Part shown: positions 36,487-45,553 of the stretch, one piece after another
How positions within the stretch are numbered: the stretch's first letter is position 1
Layout of the letters: the number at the start of each line of letters is the position of its first letter
Source of the DNA: Chitinophaga pinensis
Lineage (GTDB): Bacteria; Bacteroidota; Bacteroidia; Flavobacteriales_D; Crocinitomicaceae
Direction of reading: 5' to 3'
Assembly: GCA_945902745.1 (NCBI GenBank)
Contig: CAMDNE010000002.1
Location: forward strand, 186,001 to 250,000
Length of the DNA: 64,000 nt
The notes under the pieces: generated by a model
What the model was told of the DNA's origin: nothing
Databases searched by the model: none
Seen by the model: the letters and a program-made list of their open reading frames with translations, nothing else
Program-made: the position numbers and the translations under genes

Positions 36487-36936
36487 ATGTTGTCAAAAAA
36501 ATCGAAATATGCTATAAAGGCTTTGATTTCTCTAGCAAAAAGATATGAGAATAAAGTGCCAGTTAAAATTTCAGAAATTTCAGAAGAAGAAAAAATACCT
36601 CGAAAATTTCTAGAGGCAATATTGGTAGAATTAAGAAATAACGGATTACTTCATAGTAAAATGGGCGCCAATGGTGGCTATTTATTGGCAAAACATCCAG
36701 AAGAAATTGTATTAAGTCATATTATACGAATATCAGGTGGCCCTATAGCAATGTTGCCTTGCGTGAGTTTAAACTTCTATGAACCTTGCGAAGAATGTGT
36801 CAATGAATCAACATGTGGATTAAGGGATGTAATTCTTGAGGTCAGGGAAGCCACAATTCGGATATTATCTAAGACTTCTTTATCAGACATTCTTCAGAGA
36901 GAAGAAGGTTTAAAGAAGAAGTTTAATCTCATATAA
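36487..36936 (+). CDS. Rrf2-family transcriptional regulator with four cysteines
   Basis: 149 residues. An N-terminal winged helix (KSKYAIKALISLAKRYENKVPVKISEISEEEKIPRKFLEAILVELRNNGLLHSKMGANGGYLLAK) fits Rrf2. The sensor part has C92, C101, C104 and C110 (PCVSLNFYEPCEECVNESTCGL), similar in position to the Fe-S ligands of IscR-like members. In other bacteria CymR/IscR-type Rrf2 proteins control cysteine and Fe-S metabolism. Located just before the sulfite reductase gene on the same strand. I infer control of the sulfur operon; the ligand (cluster or metabolite) is not known. Confidence 0.9.
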   Translation: MLSKKSKYAIKALISLAKRYENKVPVKISEISEEEKIPRKFLEAILVELRNNGLLHSKMGANGGYLLAKHPEEIVLSHIIRISGGPIAMLPCVSLNFYEPCEECVNESTCGLRDVILEVREATIRILSKTSLSDILQREEGLKKKFNLI

Positions 36937-37070: not shown

Positions 37071-37087
37071 ATTTAAGAGTATATGAA

Positions 37088-39235
37088 ATGACATTATTCA
37101 GAGAAGGTATTGAAAATTTAAAATCAGTCGCAACGAAAGTCTTGATTGAAAAGGACATAATTGAACTTGGCGAGAAAATTCAAGCTTTTAAGTTTGGATT
37201 AATTCACGAAGACAAATTCAAAGCACTTCGATTAGCTCGAGGGGTTTATGGTCAACGTCAAACAGGTGTTCAAATGATTAGAATAAAACTTCCTTTTGGG
37301 AAAGTTACTACTCAGCAATTAAGACGAATTGCAGAAGTTTCTGATGAATATTCAACAGGGATTCTACACATCACAACAAGACAGGATATTCAAATTCATT
37401 ATGTTAACCTTGACCGAACACCAGAGCTTTGGGCAGAATTAGAAAAAGATGAAATTACTTTAAGAGAAGCTTGTGGAAATACAGTAAGAAATGTAACAGC
37501 AAGTGCTTTGGCTGGAATTGATAAAAATGAACTTTTCGATGTTTCTCCATACGCTGATCAAGTTTTTCGTTATTTTCTTAGAAAACCATTTGGACAGGAA
37601 CTTGGTCGAAAAATAAAGATTGCTTTCAGTAGTAGCGAAGAAGATGACGCGTTTACATTTATTCATGATTTCGGCTTTATTCCAAAATTACATATTGATG
37701 AAAATGGAAAACTCATCAGAGGATTTAAAGTTGTTGTTGGAGGAGGACTTGGGGCTCAACCATTTTTAGCAAAAACAGCATATGAATTTATAGAAGCAAC
37801 AGAAATTCTTGGTTTTATAGAAGCTGCAATTCGTGTTTTTGACAGATATGGTGAAAGGAACAATAGGAATAAAGCAAGATTAAAATACATTATTGGCAAA
37901 TTGGGAGTTGATCAATTTATTGAATTAGTTGAAAAAGAAAAAACTGCCATCCAATTCAACGAATCAATTGACAATGAACTTTATGATCATGAAGTACAGT
38001 TTCAGGAATTGTATAAAACCGTTTCAATAGAAAACTTAATTTCAAAAACAACTAATTCTTCATTTATTGAATGGGTAAAAACAAACGTTATTCCTCAAAA
38101 ACAAAATGGCTATTATGCTGCATTCGTGAAAATTTCTTTGGGAAATTTCACCACAGATCAAGCTCGTTTATTGACAGAGATTATCTCCAAATATGCCGCA
38201 AATGACGCCCGATTCACAATTGATCAGAGTGTTTTATTGAAATACATTTTACCTGAAAATCTTGAAAAACTGTATACAGAATTAAGTGAAATTGGTCTTG
38301 GCGAATCAGGATATAATAGTTTAGCTGACGTAACTGCTTGTCCAGGTACAGACACATGTAATCTTGGGATTTCTAACAGTACCAATGTTTCGACTGAGAT
38401 AGAACATTTAATTCGAGCTGAATTTCCTGAGTTAATCTATGAACAAAATATCAAAATCAAAATTAGTGGCTGTATGAATTCTTGTGGTCAACATGGTTTG
38501 GCACAAATTGGTTTTCACGGTAGCTCAATCAAAGTTGACAAAGGGACTCTTCCTGCATTGCAAGTATTGTTAGGTGGTGGAAAATTGGGAAATGGTGAAG
38601 GCTTAATTGCAGAAAAGGTAATTAAGCTTCCAAGCAAACGAGTGTTGGATATTATTCGCTTTTTAATAACTGATTTTCTAAGCCTGAAGGATGAAAATGA
38701 AACGTTCAATGAATACTATACACGTCAAGGAAATAGATATTTCTACGATTTGCTAAAACCATTAGCTGATACCAGCAACTTAGTTGATTCAGATTTTATT
38801 GATTGGGGAAATGACGAAAAATTTAAAACTGCCATTGGCATTGGAGAATGTGCTGGAGTTATGATAGATTTAGTTGGGACATTGTTTTATGATGCAGAAG
38901 AAAAGATGATGCTTGCAAATGAAAGTTTAGCTGAACAAAGATATGGCGATTCGATTTATCAAGCCTATTCTGGAGGAATTCATGCTGCAAAAGCTTTATT
39001 ACTTCAAAATAATATTCGATGTAATACGCATATTGGAATCATCAATGATTTTGATATCAATCTTGGAAAGGACTTTAATTTCAATAAGGAATATACCTTC
39101 TCCGATTTGATAACGCAAATAAATAAAGAGGTTCCCAACGGGAGTTTCGCTAAAAAATATTTAAAAGATATTAGTGAACTAATCAGCACTATTAAATTGT
39201 CTCTTGACAAAAAAAATAACACAAATGAAAAATAA
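37088..39235 (+). CDS. Siroheme sulfite (nitrite) reductase with C-terminal HEPN-like extension
   Basis: 715 residues from ATG 37088. Two ferredoxin-like/siroheme half-domains: GVYGQRQTGVQMIRIKLPFGKVT and THTRQ-type ILHITTRQDIQIHYVNL near residue 95, then RNVTASALAG. The 4Fe-4S/siroheme cysteines are C418 and C424 (TACPGTDTC) and C462 and C466 (SGCMNSCGQ). A tail from about 590 (AIGIGECAGVMIDLVG, QAYSGGIHAAKALLL) looks like a helical HEPN-type domain. Reduces sulfite to sulfide with ferredoxin; the cys context favours sulfite over nitrite. Overlaps cobA by 11 bases. Confidence 0.9.
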   Translation: MTLFREGIENLKSVATKVLIEKDIIELGEKIQAFKFGLIHEDKFKALRLARGVYGQRQTGVQMIRIKLPFGKVTTQQLRRIAEVSDEYSTGILHITTRQDIQIHYVNLDRTPELWAELEKDEITLREACGNTVRNVTASALAGIDKNELFDVSPYADQVFRYFLRKPFGQELGRKIKIAFSSSEEDDAFTFIHDFGFIPKLHIDENGKLIRGFKVVVGGGLGAQPFLAKTAYEFIEATEILGFIEAAIRVFDRYGERNNRNKARLKYIIGKLGVDQFIELVEKEKTAIQFNESIDNELYDHEVQFQELYKTVSIENLISKTTNSSFIEWVKTNVIPQKQNGYYAAFVKISLGNFTTDQARLLTEIISKYAANDARFTIDQSVLLKYILPENLEKLYTELSEIGLGESGYNSLADVTACPGTDTCNLGISNSTNVSTEIEHLIRAEFPELIYEQNIKIKISGCMNSCGQHGLAQIGFHGSSIKVDKGTLPALQVLLGGGKLGNGEGLIAEKVIKLPSKRVLDIIRFLITDFLSLKDENETFNEYYTRQGNRYFYDLLKPLADTSNLVDSDFIDWGNDEKFKTAIGIGECAGVMIDLVGTLFYDAEEKMMLANESLAEQRYGDSIYQAYSGGIHAAKALLLQNNIRCNTHIGIINDFDINLGKDFNFNKEYTFSDLITQINKEVPNGSFAKKYLKDISELISTIKLSLDKKNNTNEK

Positions 39236-39989
39236 AAACATACAACCAAAACTAACGCTCGTTGGAGCTGGACCTGGTGATTTAGAATTAATTACGATAA
39301 AAGGAATTAAAGCAATTGAAAAAGCAGACGTGATACTTTATGACGCATTAGTAAATACTGAACTTCTTGAATTTGCTCCAAATGCCAAAATTATTTTTGT
39401 CGGTAAACGGAAAGGATTCAAAGCTTTTTTACAAAACGAAATTAATTCTTTAATCGTTAAAGAAGCTATTAATAATGGTCACGTTGTTCGCTTAAAAGGT
39501 GGAGACCCTTTCGTTTTCGGAAGAGGTTTTGAAGAATCAGAGCATGCTAAATTATACAATATCCCTGTTGAAGTAGTTCCTGGAATTTCAAGTTCAATTT
39601 CTGTTCCTGCATTATCTGGCATTCCTGTAACACATAGAGGCACTAGCAATGGCTTTTTTGTATTAACGGGAACGCTTTCAGATGGATCTTTGAATCCAGA
39701 AATACATTTGGCTGCTAGAACGAATGCAACCGTTGTCATTTTAATGGGTCTATCCAAATTAGATGAAATCTCGAACATTTACGCGCAAATTGGCAAATCA
39801 AATCAAGCCTTTAGCGTAATAAGTAATGGATCATTACCAAGTCAAAAAACTGTTTTTGGAACAAGTGCAACGATAATTAAAAAAGTTAAAGATTCAACGT
39901 TAAAATCCCCTGCTTTAATTGTTATAGGTGATGTTGTCTCGCTTCCACAAACGACTTTAACAAATTTGGTGAATTACAACCTAAATTAA
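39225..39989 (+). CDS. cobA: Uroporphyrinogen-III C-methyltransferase
   Basis: 254 residues from ATG 39225, which overlaps the reductase stop; a TTG 21 bases upstream is possible. Makes precorrin-2, the siroheme precursor. Family motifs: TLVGAGPGDLELITIKGIKAI, ADVILYDALVN, FVGKRKG, VVRLKGGDPFVFGRGFEE, VVPGISSSISVPALSGIPVTHRG and LMGLSKLD. C-terminal ALIVIGDVV is typical. Supplies cofactor for the reductase it is coupled to. Confidence 0.97.
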   Translation: MKNKNIQPKLTLVGAGPGDLELITIKGIKAIEKADVILYDALVNTELLEFAPNAKIIFVGKRKGFKAFLQNEINSLIVKEAINNGHVVRLKGGDPFVFGRGFEESEHAKLYNIPVEVVPGISSSISVPALSGIPVTHRGTSNGFFVLTGTLSDGSLNPEIHLAARTNATVVILMGLSKLDEISNIYAQIGKSNQAFSVISNGSLPSQKTVFGTSATIIKKVKDSTLKSPALIVIGDVVSLPQTTLTNLVNYNLN

Positions 39990-40001
39990 TATTCAAGATC
40001 G

Positions 40002-41477
40002 ATGCAAACTGCCGAAAATAATTTACTTCCAATTTTTCTAAAATTAGAGAATTTGCTGACTTTAATTGTTGGCGGAGGAAACGTGGCATTTGAAAAATTG
40101 AATGCGATATTAATGAATTCTCCAAAGGCAAAAATCCGACTCGTTTCTGCTGATATTTCGCAGGAAATAGAATCGTTGGTAAATGGAAATCCTAGAGTGG
40201 AAATAATCAATTCAGAATTTCAACCCTCCCATTTTGAAGGAGTTCAAATTGTGATAACAGCTTTAAATAATATTGAATTATCAGCTAAAATAAAAGCATT
40301 GGCTAATGAAAAAAACTTGCTCTATAATGCGGCAGACAAGCCTGATATTTGTGATTTTTATTTAGGTTCAGTTGTTACAAAAGGGAATTTAAAAATCGGC
40401 ATTTCAACGAATGGAAAATCTCCTACAATGGCAAAACGGATTAAAGAAGTCTTAAATGATTCCATTCCGAAAGAGATCACCGACAGCATTGAAAACATGA
40501 GTCGTTTAAGAGGTCATATAAAAGGTAATCTAGGAGATAAAATCAAAAAATTAAATCGTGTAACAGCAACTTTGATTAAAGACAAAGAATCGAAATGGTA
40601 TGAATTCAATATTCTTAAAATTACATTAAGAGTATTTGGAGTGCTAGCAATTCTAATTTCGGGACATGTGATTTTCACTTTGCTTCCACCCTCTTCTATA
40701 TGGGAAACTACAAATACTGTTATCAGTCAATTGGATGTTACATTCCTCTATTTCATGTTGGGTGGATTTATTGCTCAAATGATTGATGGTGCATTAGGAA
40801 TGGCATATGGCGTAAGTGCAACTACCTTTTTATTGTCATTTGGTATTTCTCCAGCGGTCGCTAGTATGAGTGTCCATTTTTCTGAAATATTTACCAGTGG
40901 TGTTTCAGGCTTAATGCATTTGAAATTTGGAAATGTGCACAGTCGTCTGTTCAAAGCTATTGTCGTTCCTGGTGTTATAGGAGCAATTATAGGAGCATAT
41001 TTATTGTCAGAATTTGAGCAATATAGCCCTTATATAAAGCCGATTATTGGAATTTACACCTTGTTTTTGGGAACACTTATTATTTATAAAGTAATAAGAA
41101 AAAAACAAAACAGGCAAAAGGTTAAAAATGCTGGTTTGTTAGCAGTGGTAGGTGGTTTTTTGGATTCAATTGGTGGTGGTGGCTGGGGGCCAGTTGTTTC
41201 GTCAACATTAATCGCACGTGGAAAAAACCCAAGATTGGTTGTTGGATCTGTGAACTTGGCTGAATTTTTTGTTTCATTAGCAAGTTCATTTACCTTTTTC
41301 ACCTTAATTGGAATCGGGCAATGGCAAACAATCTTAGGTCTAATTTTAGGAGGAGTTTGTGCCGCACCTATTGCAGCTAATTTATCAAAACGACTCAACA
41401 TAAAAGTGATGATGTTAATGGTTGGAATAGTGGTTGTTATAGTGAGTTTGAGAATTATTTTATTAGCCATATTTTAA
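40002..41477 (+). CDS. Precorrin-2 dehydrogenase (siroheme synthase) domain fused to TSUP/TauE-type anion exporter
   Basis: 491 residues. Residues 1-200 are the CysG N-terminal type domain: LPIFLKLENLLTLIVGGGNVAFEKL, VITALNN, VVTKGNLKIGISTNGKSPTMAKRIKEVL. From about 212 the protein is membrane-embedded, with about eight helices. The TSUP hallmarks are FMLGGFIAQMIDGALGMAYGVS, SVHFSEIFTSGVSGLMHLKFGNV, GFLDSIGGGGWGPVVSSTLIARGKNPRLVVGSVNLAEF and a second half-repeat. It thus joins oxidation of precorrin-2 (and probably iron insertion) to transport of sulfite or a related anion. Transport direction is not known. Twelve bases after cobA. Confidence 0.9.
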   Translation: MQTAENNLLPIFLKLENLLTLIVGGGNVAFEKLNAILMNSPKAKIRLVSADISQEIESLVNGNPRVEIINSEFQPSHFEGVQIVITALNNIELSAKIKALANEKNLLYNAADKPDICDFYLGSVVTKGNLKIGISTNGKSPTMAKRIKEVLNDSIPKEITDSIENMSRLRGHIKGNLGDKIKKLNRVTATLIKDKESKWYEFNILKITLRVFGVLAILISGHVIFTLLPPSSIWETTNTVISQLDVTFLYFMLGGFIAQMIDGALGMAYGVSATTFLLSFGISPAVASMSVHFSEIFTSGVSGLMHLKFGNVHSRLFKAIVVPGVIGAIIGAYLLSEFEQYSPYIKPIIGIYTLFLGTLIIYKVIRKKQNRQKVKNAGLLAVVGGFLDSIGGGGWGPVVSSTLIARGKNPRLVVGSVNLAEFFVSLASSFTFFTLIGIGQWQTILGLILGGVCAAPIAANLSKRLNIKVMMLMVGIVVVIVSLRIILLAIF

Positions 41478-41566: not shown

Positions 41567-42250
41567 ATGAGTGAATTAAAACATATTGAACAATTGAATC
41601 TTGTTGATCTTCTGAAGGAAATCGCAGGAAAGTATGGAGTAAATGCAGTATTTTCAACGAGCTTAAGTTGGGAAGACCAAATAATTACTCACCATATTTT
41701 TTCGTTGAATTTGCCAATCAGAATTTTCACATTAGATACTGGAAGGTTATTTCCTGAAACATATAGTTTATTAAATAGCACACGTGAACGGTACCATAAG
41801 GAAATTGAAGTTTATTTCCCAAACCATGTTAACCTCCAAGAAATGTTAACTCAAAAAGGACCAATAAGTTTTTATGAAACAATAGAAAATAGAAAAGAAT
41901 GTTGTTTTTTAAGAAAAGTTGAACCTTTAAACAGAGCCTTAGAAGGTGTTGATTGCTGGATAACAGGATTAAGAAGCGAACATTCAGAAAACAGAAAAGA
42001 ATTGCCAATTTCAGAATGGGATGAACAACGAAAACTATATAAAGTAAACCCTCTATCAAATTGGACACTCACAGAAGTAAAAAAAGAAATAGAAAAATAC
42101 AATATCCCATATAATGTCCTACATGACAAAGGTTTTGTTAGCATAGGATGCCAGCCTTGTACCAGAGCAATTAAAGAAGGTGAAGATTTCAGAGCTGGAA
42201 GATGGTGGTGGGAATCAAATGACAAAAAAGAATGTGGATTGCACAACTAA
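41567..42250 (+). CDS. cysH: Adenylyl-sulfate (APS) reductase, CysH family
   Basis: 227 residues. The PP-loop-like start FSTSLSWEDQIITHHIF, then FTLDTGRLFPET and GLRSEHSENRKE. C112-C113 (KECCFLRK) and C195-x2-C198 (GCQPCTRAI) form the 4Fe-4S motif that marks APS-specific reductases; the catalytic cysteine is C223 near the end (ECGLHN). It therefore should use APS directly, consistent with the lack of a cysC kinase here. Gap of 42 bases to cysD. Confidence 0.95.
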   Translation: MSELKHIEQLNLVDLLKEIAGKYGVNAVFSTSLSWEDQIITHHIFSLNLPIRIFTLDTGRLFPETYSLLNSTRERYHKEIEVYFPNHVNLQEMLTQKGPISFYETIENRKECCFLRKVEPLNRALEGVDCWITGLRSEHSENRKELPISEWDEQRKLYKVNPLSNWTLTEVKKEIEKYNIPYNVLHDKGFVSIGCQPCTRAIKEGEDFRAGRWWWESNDKKECGLHN

Positions 42251-42292: not shown

Positions 42293-43189
42293 ATGGATTA
42301 TTTAGATCAATTAGAAGCAGAAGCAATATATATTTTGAGAGAAGTGGCTGGTCAATTTGACAGACCAGCATTACTTTTTAGTGGAGGAAAAGATAGTATT
42401 TGCTTAGTTCATTTAGCTTTGAAAGCTTTTCGCCCAGGTAAATTCCCCTTCCCGTTAGTACACGTCGATACAGGCCATAATTTTCAGGAAGTATTAGATT
42501 ACCGTGACCAACTTGCAAGTGAAATTGGAGAACAGTTAATTGTTAGAAAAGTAGAAGATACTATTACTATAAGAAATCTACAGGATGGAAAAGGAAAGTT
42601 CCCCAGTAGAAATGGACTACAAACTTATACTTTATTAGACGTAATATCAGAGTTTGAATTTGATGCTTGTATTGGAGGAGCCAGAAGAGACGAAGAAAAA
42701 GCGAGAGCAAAAGAAAGAATTTTCTCAGTACGTGATGAATTTGGCCAATGGGATCCAAAGAAACAACGTCCAGAAATTTGGGATATTTATAACGGAAAAG
42801 TTGACAAAGGAGAAAATGTGAGAGTTTTTCCAATTTCAAACTGGACAGAACTAGATGTTTGGAACTATATCAAAAGAGAAAATATTGTTCTTCCATCAAT
42901 CTATTTCACGCATAAACGTGATTGTATAGTAACTGAAAACGGACAACTAATGAATATTAATGAGTTTGTTCAATTAGAAGAATCTGACACTATTGTGAAC
43001 AGGAATGTCCGTTACAGAACTGTTGGCGATATGACTTGTACCGCTGCCGTTGAAAGTGAAGCCTATACTGTTGATGACATAATTTCTGAAATAAAGGACA
43101 CTAAAATTTCGGAAAGAGGCGCAACGAGAATGGATGACAGAGTGAGTGAAGCGGCAATGGAAGACAGGAAAAAAGGAGGTTATTTCTAA
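42293..43189 (+). CDS. cysD: Sulfate adenylyltransferase subunit 2
   Basis: 298 residues, normal length. ATP-pyrophosphatase PP-loop FSGGKDSICLVHLA (29-42), VHVDTGHNFQE, IGGARRDEEKARAKERIFS, and C-terminal DDRVSEAAMEDRKKGGYF are family signatures. With CysN it activates sulfate to APS using ATP and GTP. Lies between cysH and cysN on the same strand; a 100-base gap with tandem repeats precedes cysN. Confidence 0.98.
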   Translation: MDYLDQLEAEAIYILREVAGQFDRPALLFSGGKDSICLVHLALKAFRPGKFPFPLVHVDTGHNFQEVLDYRDQLASEIGEQLIVRKVEDTITIRNLQDGKGKFPSRNGLQTYTLLDVISEFEFDACIGGARRDEEKARAKERIFSVRDEFGQWDPKKQRPEIWDIYNGKVDKGENVRVFPISNWTELDVWNYIKRENIVLPSIYFTHKRDCIVTENGQLMNINEFVQLEESDTIVNRNVRYRTVGDMTCTAAVESEAYTVDDIISEIKDTKISERGATRMDDRVSEAAMEDRKKGGYF

Positions 43190-43289: not shown

Positions 43290-44534
43290 ATGAAACTTTT
43301 AAGATTTTTTACAGCTGGAAACGTTGACGACGGAAAAAGCACATTGATTGGACGATTATTATATGATAGTAAATCAATCTCTACAGATATAATTGAGACT
43401 TTAACAAAACAAAGTAAATCTACTGGTGTAGATACTGACATCGATTTGGCATTACTTACAGATGGATTAAGAGCTGAAAGAGAGCAAGGAATAACGATAG
43501 ATGTCGCCTATAAATATTTCACAACTGACAAACGGAAATTTATAATTGCGGACACCCCTGGGCATGCTCAATATACTAGAAACATGTTTACAGGTGCATC
43601 TAATACAGATTTGGCAATTATTCTAATTGATGCTCGAAATGGAATCACAGAACAAACTAAACGACACAGTATCATTACTGGAACTTTGGCTATTCCGCAC
43701 ATTTTAATTTGTGTGAATAAAATGGATTTAGTTGATTTTGATGAGAATGTTTTTGAAAACATAAAAGCTGAATATTTAAAATTTGCGGAACCTCTTGGGC
43801 TTAAAAAAGTTTCATTTATTCCTGTAAGTGCTTTGGCTGGAGATAACGTTGTGAATAAATCAGAAAAGTTAGAATGGTACAAGGGTACTACCCTATTCGA
43901 TTTTCTAGAAAACGTTGAAATTGAGCATGAAGAAACTACCAAAAAAAGTCGTTTTCAAGTTCAATATGTAATTCGTCCACAGACAGATGAACTTCATGAT
44001 TACAGAGGATATGCAGGAAGTGTATTGAGCGGTAGTTTTGAAAAAGGTGATAAAATTTTTATTTATCCATTAGACAGCCAAACTACTATTGAAAAAATTG
44101 AAAAGAATGGCATTGAAGTAACTGAAGCTCACGCTGGAGAGCCAATAATAATTCATTTATCTGATGATTTAGATGTAAGTCGTGGAAGTACAATGGTACA
44201 GATAAATGACAGTATTCAAAACGATAATAATCTAGAAGCCACTATTTGTTGGATGGACAATAAATCATTTCAAGAAGGTCAAAAATTAATCTTTCAACAA
44301 AATAGTTTTACGAGTAAAGCTGTGATAAAAGAAGTAATTGGAAAGATAAATATTCACAGTTACCTAAATGAGGAAAGTGATGGACATATACAATTAAATG
44401 AGTTATGTAAGGTTCATATAAAAACAGCAGAAAATGTGAGCTACGATTCCTATAAAACCAATAGAAAAACAGGCGCATTTATTTTAATTAATGAAAATAC
44501 AAACAACACAGTTGCGGCTGGAGTTATAATATAA
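43290..44534 (+). CDS. cysN: Sulfate adenylyltransferase subunit 1 (GTPase)
   Basis: 414 residues. EF-Tu-like GTPase: G1 GNVDDGKST (10-18), G2 region EREQGITIDVAYKYF, G3 DTPGHAQYTRNM, G4 VNKMDLV, G5 VSALAG. Beta-barrel domains follow (FQVQYVIRPQTDELHDYRGYAGSVLSG). It lacks a fused APS kinase domain, fitting the APS-reducing CysH. GTP hydrolysis drives APS formation by CysD. Confidence 0.97.
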   Translation: MKLLRFFTAGNVDDGKSTLIGRLLYDSKSISTDIIETLTKQSKSTGVDTDIDLALLTDGLRAEREQGITIDVAYKYFTTDKRKFIIADTPGHAQYTRNMFTGASNTDLAIILIDARNGITEQTKRHSIITGTLAIPHILICVNKMDLVDFDENVFENIKAEYLKFAEPLGLKKVSFIPVSALAGDNVVNKSEKLEWYKGTTLFDFLENVEIEHEETTKKSRFQVQYVIRPQTDELHDYRGYAGSVLSGSFEKGDKIFIYPLDSQTTIEKIEKNGIEVTEAHAGEPIIIHLSDDLDVSRGSTMVQINDSIQNDNNLEATICWMDNKSFQEGQKLIFQQNSFTSKAVIKEVIGKINIHSYLNEESDGHIQLNELCKVHIKTAENVSYDSYKTNRKTGAFILINENTNNTVAAGVII

Positions 44535-44542
44535 TAAAAGAA

Positions 44543-45553
44543 ATGATTGAAACAGATATAATAATAATTGGTGCAGGTCCAGTTGGGCTCTTCACAGTAT
44601 TTGAAGCAGGATTGTTAAAATTAAAGTGTCACTTGATTGATTCACTTCCACTACCAGGAGGACAATGTTCTGAAATTTATCCTAAAAAACCCATTTACGA
44701 TATCCCAGGTTTTCCAAGTGTCTTAGCAGGAGAATTGATCGACAATTTAATGGAACAAGCTGCTCCTTTCAAACCTAATTTCACTTTAGGAGAAGCCGCA
44801 ACTGAAATTGACAAACTGGATGACGGTTCTTTTATTGTGACTACAATCAAAGGTACAAAACATCATGCACCGACTGTTATAATTGCTGGAGGATTGGGTG
44901 TATTTGAACCTCGTAAACCACCAATTGAACAACTTGAATCATTTGAAGACAAGGGAATTGAATACATTATTAAAGACCCGAATTTCTATCAGAACAAGCG
45001 ATGTGTTATTGCTGGAGGAGGTGATTCAGCCCTAGACTGGTCAATCTATTTAGTCGAAAATGAAATTGCAAAAGAGGTTGTACTTGTACATAGAAGTAGT
45101 TCTTTTAGAGGGCATTTAGATTCGGTTCAAAAAGTAATCGACATGGCTGAAACGGGAAAAATAAAATTGATTACTGAAGCTGAAGTTATCGGCGTACAAG
45201 GAGATGAGCGCTTAGAGCAAGTTGTAATAAAACATGCTACGAATGGTGAGATTATAACAGAAACCGATCATTTCATTCCATTATTTGGATTAAAACCAAG
45301 CCTCGGTCCTATTGCCGATTGGGGACTTGAATTGGATAAAAACGCAATCAAGGTTGATACATTAGATTATTCAACTAATATTCCTGGTATATATGCAATT
45401 GGCGATGTAAATACTTATGAAAATAAGTTAAAATTAATTCTTTGTGGATTTCATGAAGGAACCATGGCTGTTCAATCAGCTTTCGCTCGGATTCATCCAG
45501 ACAAAAAAAATATTTTAAAATATACAACTGTAAATGGAGTACAAGGGTTTTAA
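44543..45553 (+). CDS. Thioredoxin-reductase-like ferredoxin-NADP+ reductase
   Basis: 336 residues. FAD-binding IIGAGPVGLFTVFEAG (8-23), then PGGQCSEIYPKKPIYDIPGFP, and a second Rossmann motif IAGGGDSALDWSIYL near 153. The CxxC dithiol of thioredoxin reductase is missing, and the end GVQGF plus AIGDVNTYENKLKLILCGFHEGTMA match the YumC-type FNR. It begins 8 bases after cysN. I infer it reduces ferredoxin for the sulfite reductase. Its stop shares TTAA with the converging DUF4301 gene. Confidence 0.9.
   Translation: MIETDIIIIGAGPVGLFTVFEAGLLKLKCHLIDSLPLPGGQCSEIYPKKPIYDIPGFPSVLAGELIDNLMEQAAPFKPNFTLGEAATEIDKLDDGSFIVTTIKGTKHHAPTVIIAGGLGVFEPRKPPIEQLESFEDKGIEYIIKDPNFYQNKRCVIAGGGDSALDWSIYLVENEIAKEVVLVHRSSSFRGHLDSVQKVIDMAETGKIKLITEAEVIGVQGDERLEQVVIKHATNGEIITETDHFIPLFGLKPSLGPIADWGLELDKNAIKVDTLDYSTNIPGIYAIGDVNTYENKLKLILCGFHEGTMAVQSAFARIHPDKKNILKYTTVNGVQGF

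Follow-up and report, generated by a model that had tools for sequence, protein, structure and literature searches.

In the window, which is the whole stretch of 64,000 nucleotides analysed, we detected a sulfate-assimilation cluster on the (+) strand with the same-strand gene order rrf2-sir-cobA-fusion-cysH-cysD-cysN-reductase. According to Pfam and NCBIfam matches, it encodes an Rrf2-family regulator (36487..36936), a siroheme-type sulfite reductase of 717 aa (37082..39235), the uroporphyrinogen-III C-methyltransferase (cobA/SUMT, 39210..39989), which catalyses the preceding siroheme step, the fusion gene in fourth position (40002..41477), the APS/PAPS reductase (cysH, 41567..42250), the small and large subunits of ATP sulfurylase (cysD, 42293..43189; cysN, 43290..44534) and a thioredoxin-reductase-like pyridine-nucleotide-disulfide oxidoreductase (44543..45553), probably a ferredoxin-NADP reductase serving sir. 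The fusion gene is separated by 12 bases from cobA and by 89 bases from cysH. Together these genes make up an APS route by which sulfate is reduced to sulfide, cofactor genes included, and no second transporter gene was found among its eight proteins scanned with Pfam and NCBIfam. NIR_SIR matches in the window genome were confined to one protein, the sulfite reductase. This reductase exceeds the CysI/Sir models in length, and its residues 601-680 are weakly HEPN-like (E 0.0012, 19.5 bits, below the cut-off of 22).

The fusion gene is a single intact frame with an ATG start, 491 codons (491 aa) and zero internal stops, as the first-pass annotation had read it, and joins a precorrin-2 dehydrogenase of the CysG/SirC/Met8 type, probably also a ferrochelatase (residues 9 to about 190), to a TSUP/TauE transporter (residues 252-484). 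This domain pair, proposed earlier from the letters, was borne out by Pfam and NCBIfam matches, the three Pfam domains each scoring above the curated cut-off: the NAD(P)-binding Rossmann domain (PF13241, NAD_binding_7; residues 11-123, 40032..40370, 2.7e-21) with GGGNVA at residues 24-29, the central siroheme-synthase domain (PF14824, Sirohm_synth_M; residues 128-149, 40383..40448, 1e-8) with ISTNGKSP, and the TSUP/TauE transporter domain (PF01925; residues 252-484, 40755..41453, 3.3e-35). The PF01925 match spans profile positions 2-236 of 237 at 122 bits (cut-off 32.6), and TIGR01470 (cysG_Nterm) matches residues 9-178 at 107 bits (cut-off 62.3). The enzyme's helical segment (to about residue 189) and a low-confidence hinge (pLDDT <50 at residues 192-198) occupy 40449..40610; a predicted membrane helix (residues 204-227, 40611..40682) then precedes the Pfam TauE domain.

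The AF2 model of the protein has a mean pLDDT of 79.6 and a whole-model pTM of 0.50; the transporter half is built of helices, with blocks of pLDDT 61-88. The eight-helix transporter described previously stands as a TSUP membrane part and not in its helix count, the long predicted helix 204-227 being additional. In many unfused TSUP relatives, similarity to the window protein starts at about residue 176-214. The predicted TSUP fold (residues 245-490) also matched the undecaprenyl-pyrophosphate phosphatase BacA (Z 12.9 over 229 residues, another match at Z 12.2), which is near the level reachable by chance among helical proteins, and the comparison with solved structures covered chiefly residues 6-192.

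The phmmer alignment to CysG places D112 (codon 40335..40337), P114 and P141 at CysG D104, P106 and P133, and Thr136 at the position of CysG S128. A study of CysG describes the D104A substitution as abolishing both dehydrogenase and chelatase activity and P133G/H as lowering both (PMC7018833). D112 and P141 are kept in 71/73 one-frame rows (all that were read, copies more than 90% alike dropped), the exceptions being L057 and L068. This figure is fairer than that of an alignment of 55 hand-chosen fusions, L057 and L068 not among them, where D112, P114 and P141 are invariant in 55/55. The model fold matches CysG 1-187 (Z 18.9 over 184 residues), SirC (Z 16.8) and Met8p (Z 15.7). The C-terminal helical dimer domain gave no PF10414 match at E 0.01, yet the model aligns to CysG up to residue 192.

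In the window genome, one siroheme-type protein scored 80 bits, and two others reached 24.6 and 22.9 bits, barely above the cut-off. In the class sample, no second dehydrogenase match appeared among the best five candidates per genome in the 34 fused genomes. A CbiX-type chelatase, searched for in 35 genomes (the 34 fused and the unfused G203), was detected in 5/34 fused genomes, three of the matches being weak, and the window genome had no CbiX/SirB match. Since the catalytic residues are kept in nearly all one-frame rows, the enzyme half of the window protein very likely works, and a pseudo-enzyme in the window protein itself was rejected. The rarity of CbiX and its absence from the window genome suggest that the fused domain may also insert iron; with the residue conservation, we regard it as probably an iron chelatase too.

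The enzyme part resembles the N-terminal module of CysG, SirC and Met8p in its Rossmann and central domains, in the equivalents of D104 and P133 and in its fold, and its gene likewise adjoins a SUMT gene in a cluster with sulfite reductase. Unlike CysG, it precedes a membrane transporter and not the methyltransferase half, lacks a PF10414 match at the threshold used and has threonine in place of S128. CysG of enterobacteria also has siroheme steps built into one polypeptide, but its two parts are both siroheme enzymes, whereas here an enzyme is joined to a transporter and SUMT has a gene of its own. The transporter part is a full-length member of the TSUP/TauE/SafE family by its above-cut-off match, and differs from that family in carrying an enzyme domain, which is predicted to be cytosolic.

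The public-genome scan found 184 relatives, from which 80 loci were kept as named loci, and 52/80 have both halves in one open frame. At least one of sir, cobA, cysH, cysD and cysN lies in the locus sequence examined in 50 of these 52 (exceptions L081 and L084); six of the 52 frames reach the edge of that sequence (L054, L056, L058, L066, L075, L081), and in L111 the frame breaks within the TSUP part. The carriers belong to groups including Fluviicola, Pedobacter, Desertivirga, Solitalea, Adhaeribacter and one Ignavibacteria MAG (L069), and those that are not MAGs include Fluviicola chungangensis MAH-3, Pedobacter sp. SYSU D00535, Solitalea longa HR-AV and Adhaeribacter aquaticus DSM 16391. 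When genomes were sampled evenly from the window's class, 34/296 carried the one-frame fusion, the window genome included, a count that omits G203 and G270 (match 3-312 only). In G203 (L127) a stop codon separates the neighbouring dehydrogenase and TSUP parts, which share a frame; this is a split counterpart of the fusion. All both-half matches listed in a phylum sample of 345 genomes (best four candidates per genome) fell in the window's class, and L069 from the public-genome scan is the sole fusion seen outside it. The same domain pair therefore recurs across many Bacteroidota, and its parts are not always independent genes in homologues. We found no published description of a dehydrogenase-TSUP fusion in the open-licence literature, most subscription papers being outside that scope; domain databases presumably list this architecture already.

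The sulfite-reductase query was matched in 33/34 fused genomes (29 strong, 4 distant CysI-like) vs 51/262 other genomes of the class, which, together with the position of the fusion inside a full sulfate-assimilation cluster, agrees with the tie to sulfate and sulfite metabolism suggested by the first-pass annotation. In G055 the fusion keeps its catalytic residues, yet the NIR_SIR search found no match. Fused and unfused forms alternate along the unrooted transporter tree, in which L057 and L068 carried the label "fused", so that the fusion is not essential; the own genome's other TSUPs, used as outgroup, were too distant to root the tree and the order of fusion gain and loss is not polarised.

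Several loci share further neighbours: in L043, L047, L080 and L035 a TonB-dependent receptor gene separates cobA from the fusion, joined there by a peroxiredoxin gene in the first three, and the gene after the fusion encodes an aldo/keto reductase; these domains were assigned by Pfam for L043 and by likeness for the other loci. The MAGs of L035, L041 and L051 are recorded as Chitinophaga pinensis or Actinomyces viscosus; their fusions group with Flavobacteriales and Fluviicola, and the names look wrong.

The unfused members of the same TSUP group often sit in sulfate-assimilation operons. The order TSUP-cysH-cysD-cysN-sir-cobA-dehydrogenase-reductase, with an rrf2 gene nearby, was detected in G062, G095 and G196, and TSUP-sir-cobA-dehydrogenase in G083. 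The TSUP gene was also found in the orders cysH-cysD-TSUP-cysN (G199), cysH-cysD-cysN-TSUP (G254) and cysD-cysN-TSUP (G020), and together with cysH-cysD-cysN in G213 and G250. The NIR_SIR search in 24 chosen genomes gave a match in 13 and none in G199, G254, G020, G547, G596, G003, G115, G043, G543, G574 and G055. Five of the genomes with no NIR_SIR match (the first five named; L149, L151, L152, L175, L176) hold cysHDN or cysDN together with TSUP, and two of them, G547 and G596, have a stripped dehydrogenase still attached to the TSUP part. The retention of TSUP and cys genes in these genomes suggests that the transporter goes with sulfate activation and the dehydrogenase with sulfite reductase. 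The two halves have separable partners, sulfite reductase for the dehydrogenase and cysH/cysD/cysN for the transporter; G055 runs counter to this, as do 21/28 unfused or remnant named loci, which have no cys gene in the locus sequence examined.

The Pfam TauE/SafE family is named after exporters, found in sulfonate-degradation settings. The window cluster, rrf2-sir-cobA-fusion-cysHDN, is assimilatory and has no sulfonate-degradation operon. The TSUP relatives are linked not to cysH alone but also to cysD/cysN, and the stripped fusion L177 (G536) has three sulfatase genes nearby, both on the side of import. The occurrence of TSUP with cysH/cysD/cysN even where sulfite reductase and a working dehydrogenase are missing is explained by sulfate uptake no less well than by sulfite export, and the protection from sulfite toxicity that the first-pass annotation had considered is unsupported as stated. 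One characterised TSUP protein, CysZ of Corynebacterium glutamicum, is a sulfate importer encoded in a cys operon (PMC5840216), and its likeness to the window gene lies in the gene setting, a TSUP gene within an assimilatory sulfate-reduction operon. Judged from these gene neighbourhoods, the TSUP half may import sulfate, a direction to which we give about even weight.

We consider it doubtful, although a serious alternative, that the TSUP half exports sulfite or another sulfur anion as a safety valve for the sulfite made by CysH when siroheme or the reductase is limiting. The fusion would then place the valve beside the enzyme whose shortage lets sulfite accumulate, which is near the idea proposed earlier. 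The family takes its name from sulfite exporters, and the five genomes that retain cysHDN or cysDN and TSUP without an NIR_SIR match also suit export: with cysH and no sulfite reductase, sulfite cannot be reduced by that route, which is compatible with export as well as with import. In cells without sulfite reductase, sulfite may feed sulfonolipid synthesis. Against export, the linkage to cysD/cysN as well as cysH and the sulfatase genes near one stripped fusion point to sulfate, the assimilatory route needs an importer while the cluster has no other transporter gene, and the sulfonate-degradation setting of the named exporters is absent at this cluster.

Other candidate sulfate importers, SulP and DASS proteins, would leave the fusion free for export. 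The single full SulP of the window genome adjoins a beta-carbonic anhydrase and reaches 160 bits vs the TIGR00815 cut-off of 380, which speaks for import by the TSUP half; the genome also has a DASS carrier (PF00939, 191 bits), which speaks against it. Among 80 genomes (G065 and G270 left out; G218 and G243, with a distant CysI-like reductase, included), SulP (PF00916) was matched in 75/80 and DASS (PF00939) in 47/80; G203 was counted as fused in the PF00916, TIGR00815 and DASS searches. Strict SulP was found in 4/34 fused vs 11/46 other genomes (p=0.25, corrected figures), and in a wider grouping, made post hoc and uncorrected for kinship, in 4/45 vs 11/35 (p=0.019). The replacement of strict SulP by the fusion is unsupported by the 4/34 vs 11/46 comparison and by the wide presence of PF00916, and there is no clear case for replacement of DASS. 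The SulP and DASS counts leave import vs export undecided.

The enzyme half is disabled or worn down in several relatives. By the transporter half, no relative is closer to the window gene than L057 (5027-6502; 81% identity over 289 columns). Its dehydrogenase domain is full-length and gapless, 31% identical to that of the window over 192 residues, but neither the glycine motif nor D112, P114 or P141 is kept. It adjoins cysH, cysD and cysN; neither sir nor cobA lies within the 14 kb examined, and the same MAG also has L035, with catalytic residues kept and sir and cobA adjacent. In L068 (7986-9308), from a Fluviicola MAG, D112 and P141 are gone along with about 50 residues; the gene adjoins cysH-cysD-cysN, and sir and cobA are absent from the 17 kb examined. 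Because both have lost catalytic residues, the one-frame join alone is no proof of a working enzyme. L175 (G547) and L176 (G596), both in cysH-cysD-cysN operons, keep the Rossmann part and the glycine motif, the central catalytic segment being gone. L177 (5557-6873) and L159 have lost both the central catalytic part and the glycine motif; the genome of L177 also has the intact fusion L179, and that of L159 the free dehydrogenase L126. On the transporter tree, an unrooted quick-method tree with long branches, four label changes are needed to account for the four rows labelled degenerate, three of them forced by starred branches.

In Spirosomataceae, about 100 residues precede the transporter in seven loci (six Dyadobacter, one Telluribacter; L086-L090, L094, L096). 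This remnant descends from dehydrogenase positions ~71-133 according to hhalign (probability 89.5, score 41.7; best of 200 column shuffles 22.0); single-sequence hmmsearch was less clear, with scores of no more than 4-10 bits compared with 9.0 for one of 1400 shuffles. A separate full dehydrogenase is present in all 7/7 of these genomes. The pooled pN/pS was 0.27 in the 41-codon remnant core, 0.76 in the linker, 0.83 in the tail and 0.13 in the transporter, for seven related sequences with synonymous sites near saturation in distant pairs; close pairs gave 0.04-0.17. The remnant core is under purifying selection.

These retained pieces bear on a further explanation, which we consider unlikely: that regulating or assembling the transporter is an additional or even the chief task of the dehydrogenase domain or its remnant, with catalysis secondary or lost. 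An NAD(H)- or tetrapyrrole-sensing Rossmann domain would tune anion flux, as RCK domains tune potassium transporters. Tentatively, and at a low probability, the siroheme enzyme domain may double as the TSUP regulator, sensing NAD(H) or bound tetrapyrrole and matching anion flux to siroheme supply, and the pseudo-enzyme piece may be retained after active-site decay where sulfite reductase is missing or elsewhere or a free dehydrogenase exists. L057, which keeps a full-length gapless domain with its key residues changed, is in favour of such a role, as are the domains without the central catalytic part that are still attached in L068, L159, L175, L176, L177 and Spirosomataceae, where the hhalign score exceeds all shuffles and the pN/pS of the core is low. 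The preservation of catalytic residues in nearly all one-frame rows argues against it, together with the fused genomes having no second dehydrogenase among their best five candidates, so that a working enzyme is most likely in those genomes; such a domain is absent from many TSUP relatives, and the evidence for selection comes from seven related sequences and 41 codons. Disabled yet retained domains are expected if the enzyme domain tunes the transporter, and could also serve stability or membrane insertion, or be on the way to loss. The coupling of siroheme supply to sulfur traffic that had been suggested earlier holds as far as the one-frame pair stands in a sulfate cluster, and does not hold as an obligatory link, many relatives having separate genes or a degenerate dehydrogenase.

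That an assembly or frameshift artefact, or chance, joined two genes is hardly credible and was rejected, since the one-frame pair recurs in 52/80 named loci and 34/296 sampled genomes, even though the parts in G203 stand in one frame with an intervening stop and the TSUP part of L111 is broken.

The explanation that we favour, at about even confidence as a whole, is a bifunctional membrane protein of an assimilatory sulfate-reduction operon that joins siroheme supply to sulfate import. The N-terminal domain, presumably on the cytosolic side, would be the cell's precorrin-2 dehydrogenase and probably its iron chelatase, would receive precorrin-2 from the product of the neighbouring cobA and would finish the siroheme used by the sulfite reductase, whose gene lies two places upstream. 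The C-terminal TSUP domain would most likely import sulfate, which would then be activated by the products of cysD and cysN, a role akin to that of CysZ of Corynebacterium glutamicum. CysZ is not known to be fused to an enzyme. With the fusion, cofactor supply and anion supply would always be produced together and sit at the membrane. In the plain reading, two neighbouring functions of the operon were fused, and the fusion keeps siroheme supply and anion transport together.

If this is true, a single protein would physically unite siroheme supply and sulfur-anion transport in a considerable share of the sulfate-assimilating Bacteroidota, and the fusion would offer direct access to what the poorly characterised TSUP transporters carry and in which direction. 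Relatives in which the enzyme half decayed, as happened repeatedly, would be a natural experiment on the reuse of an enzyme domain as a transporter regulator.
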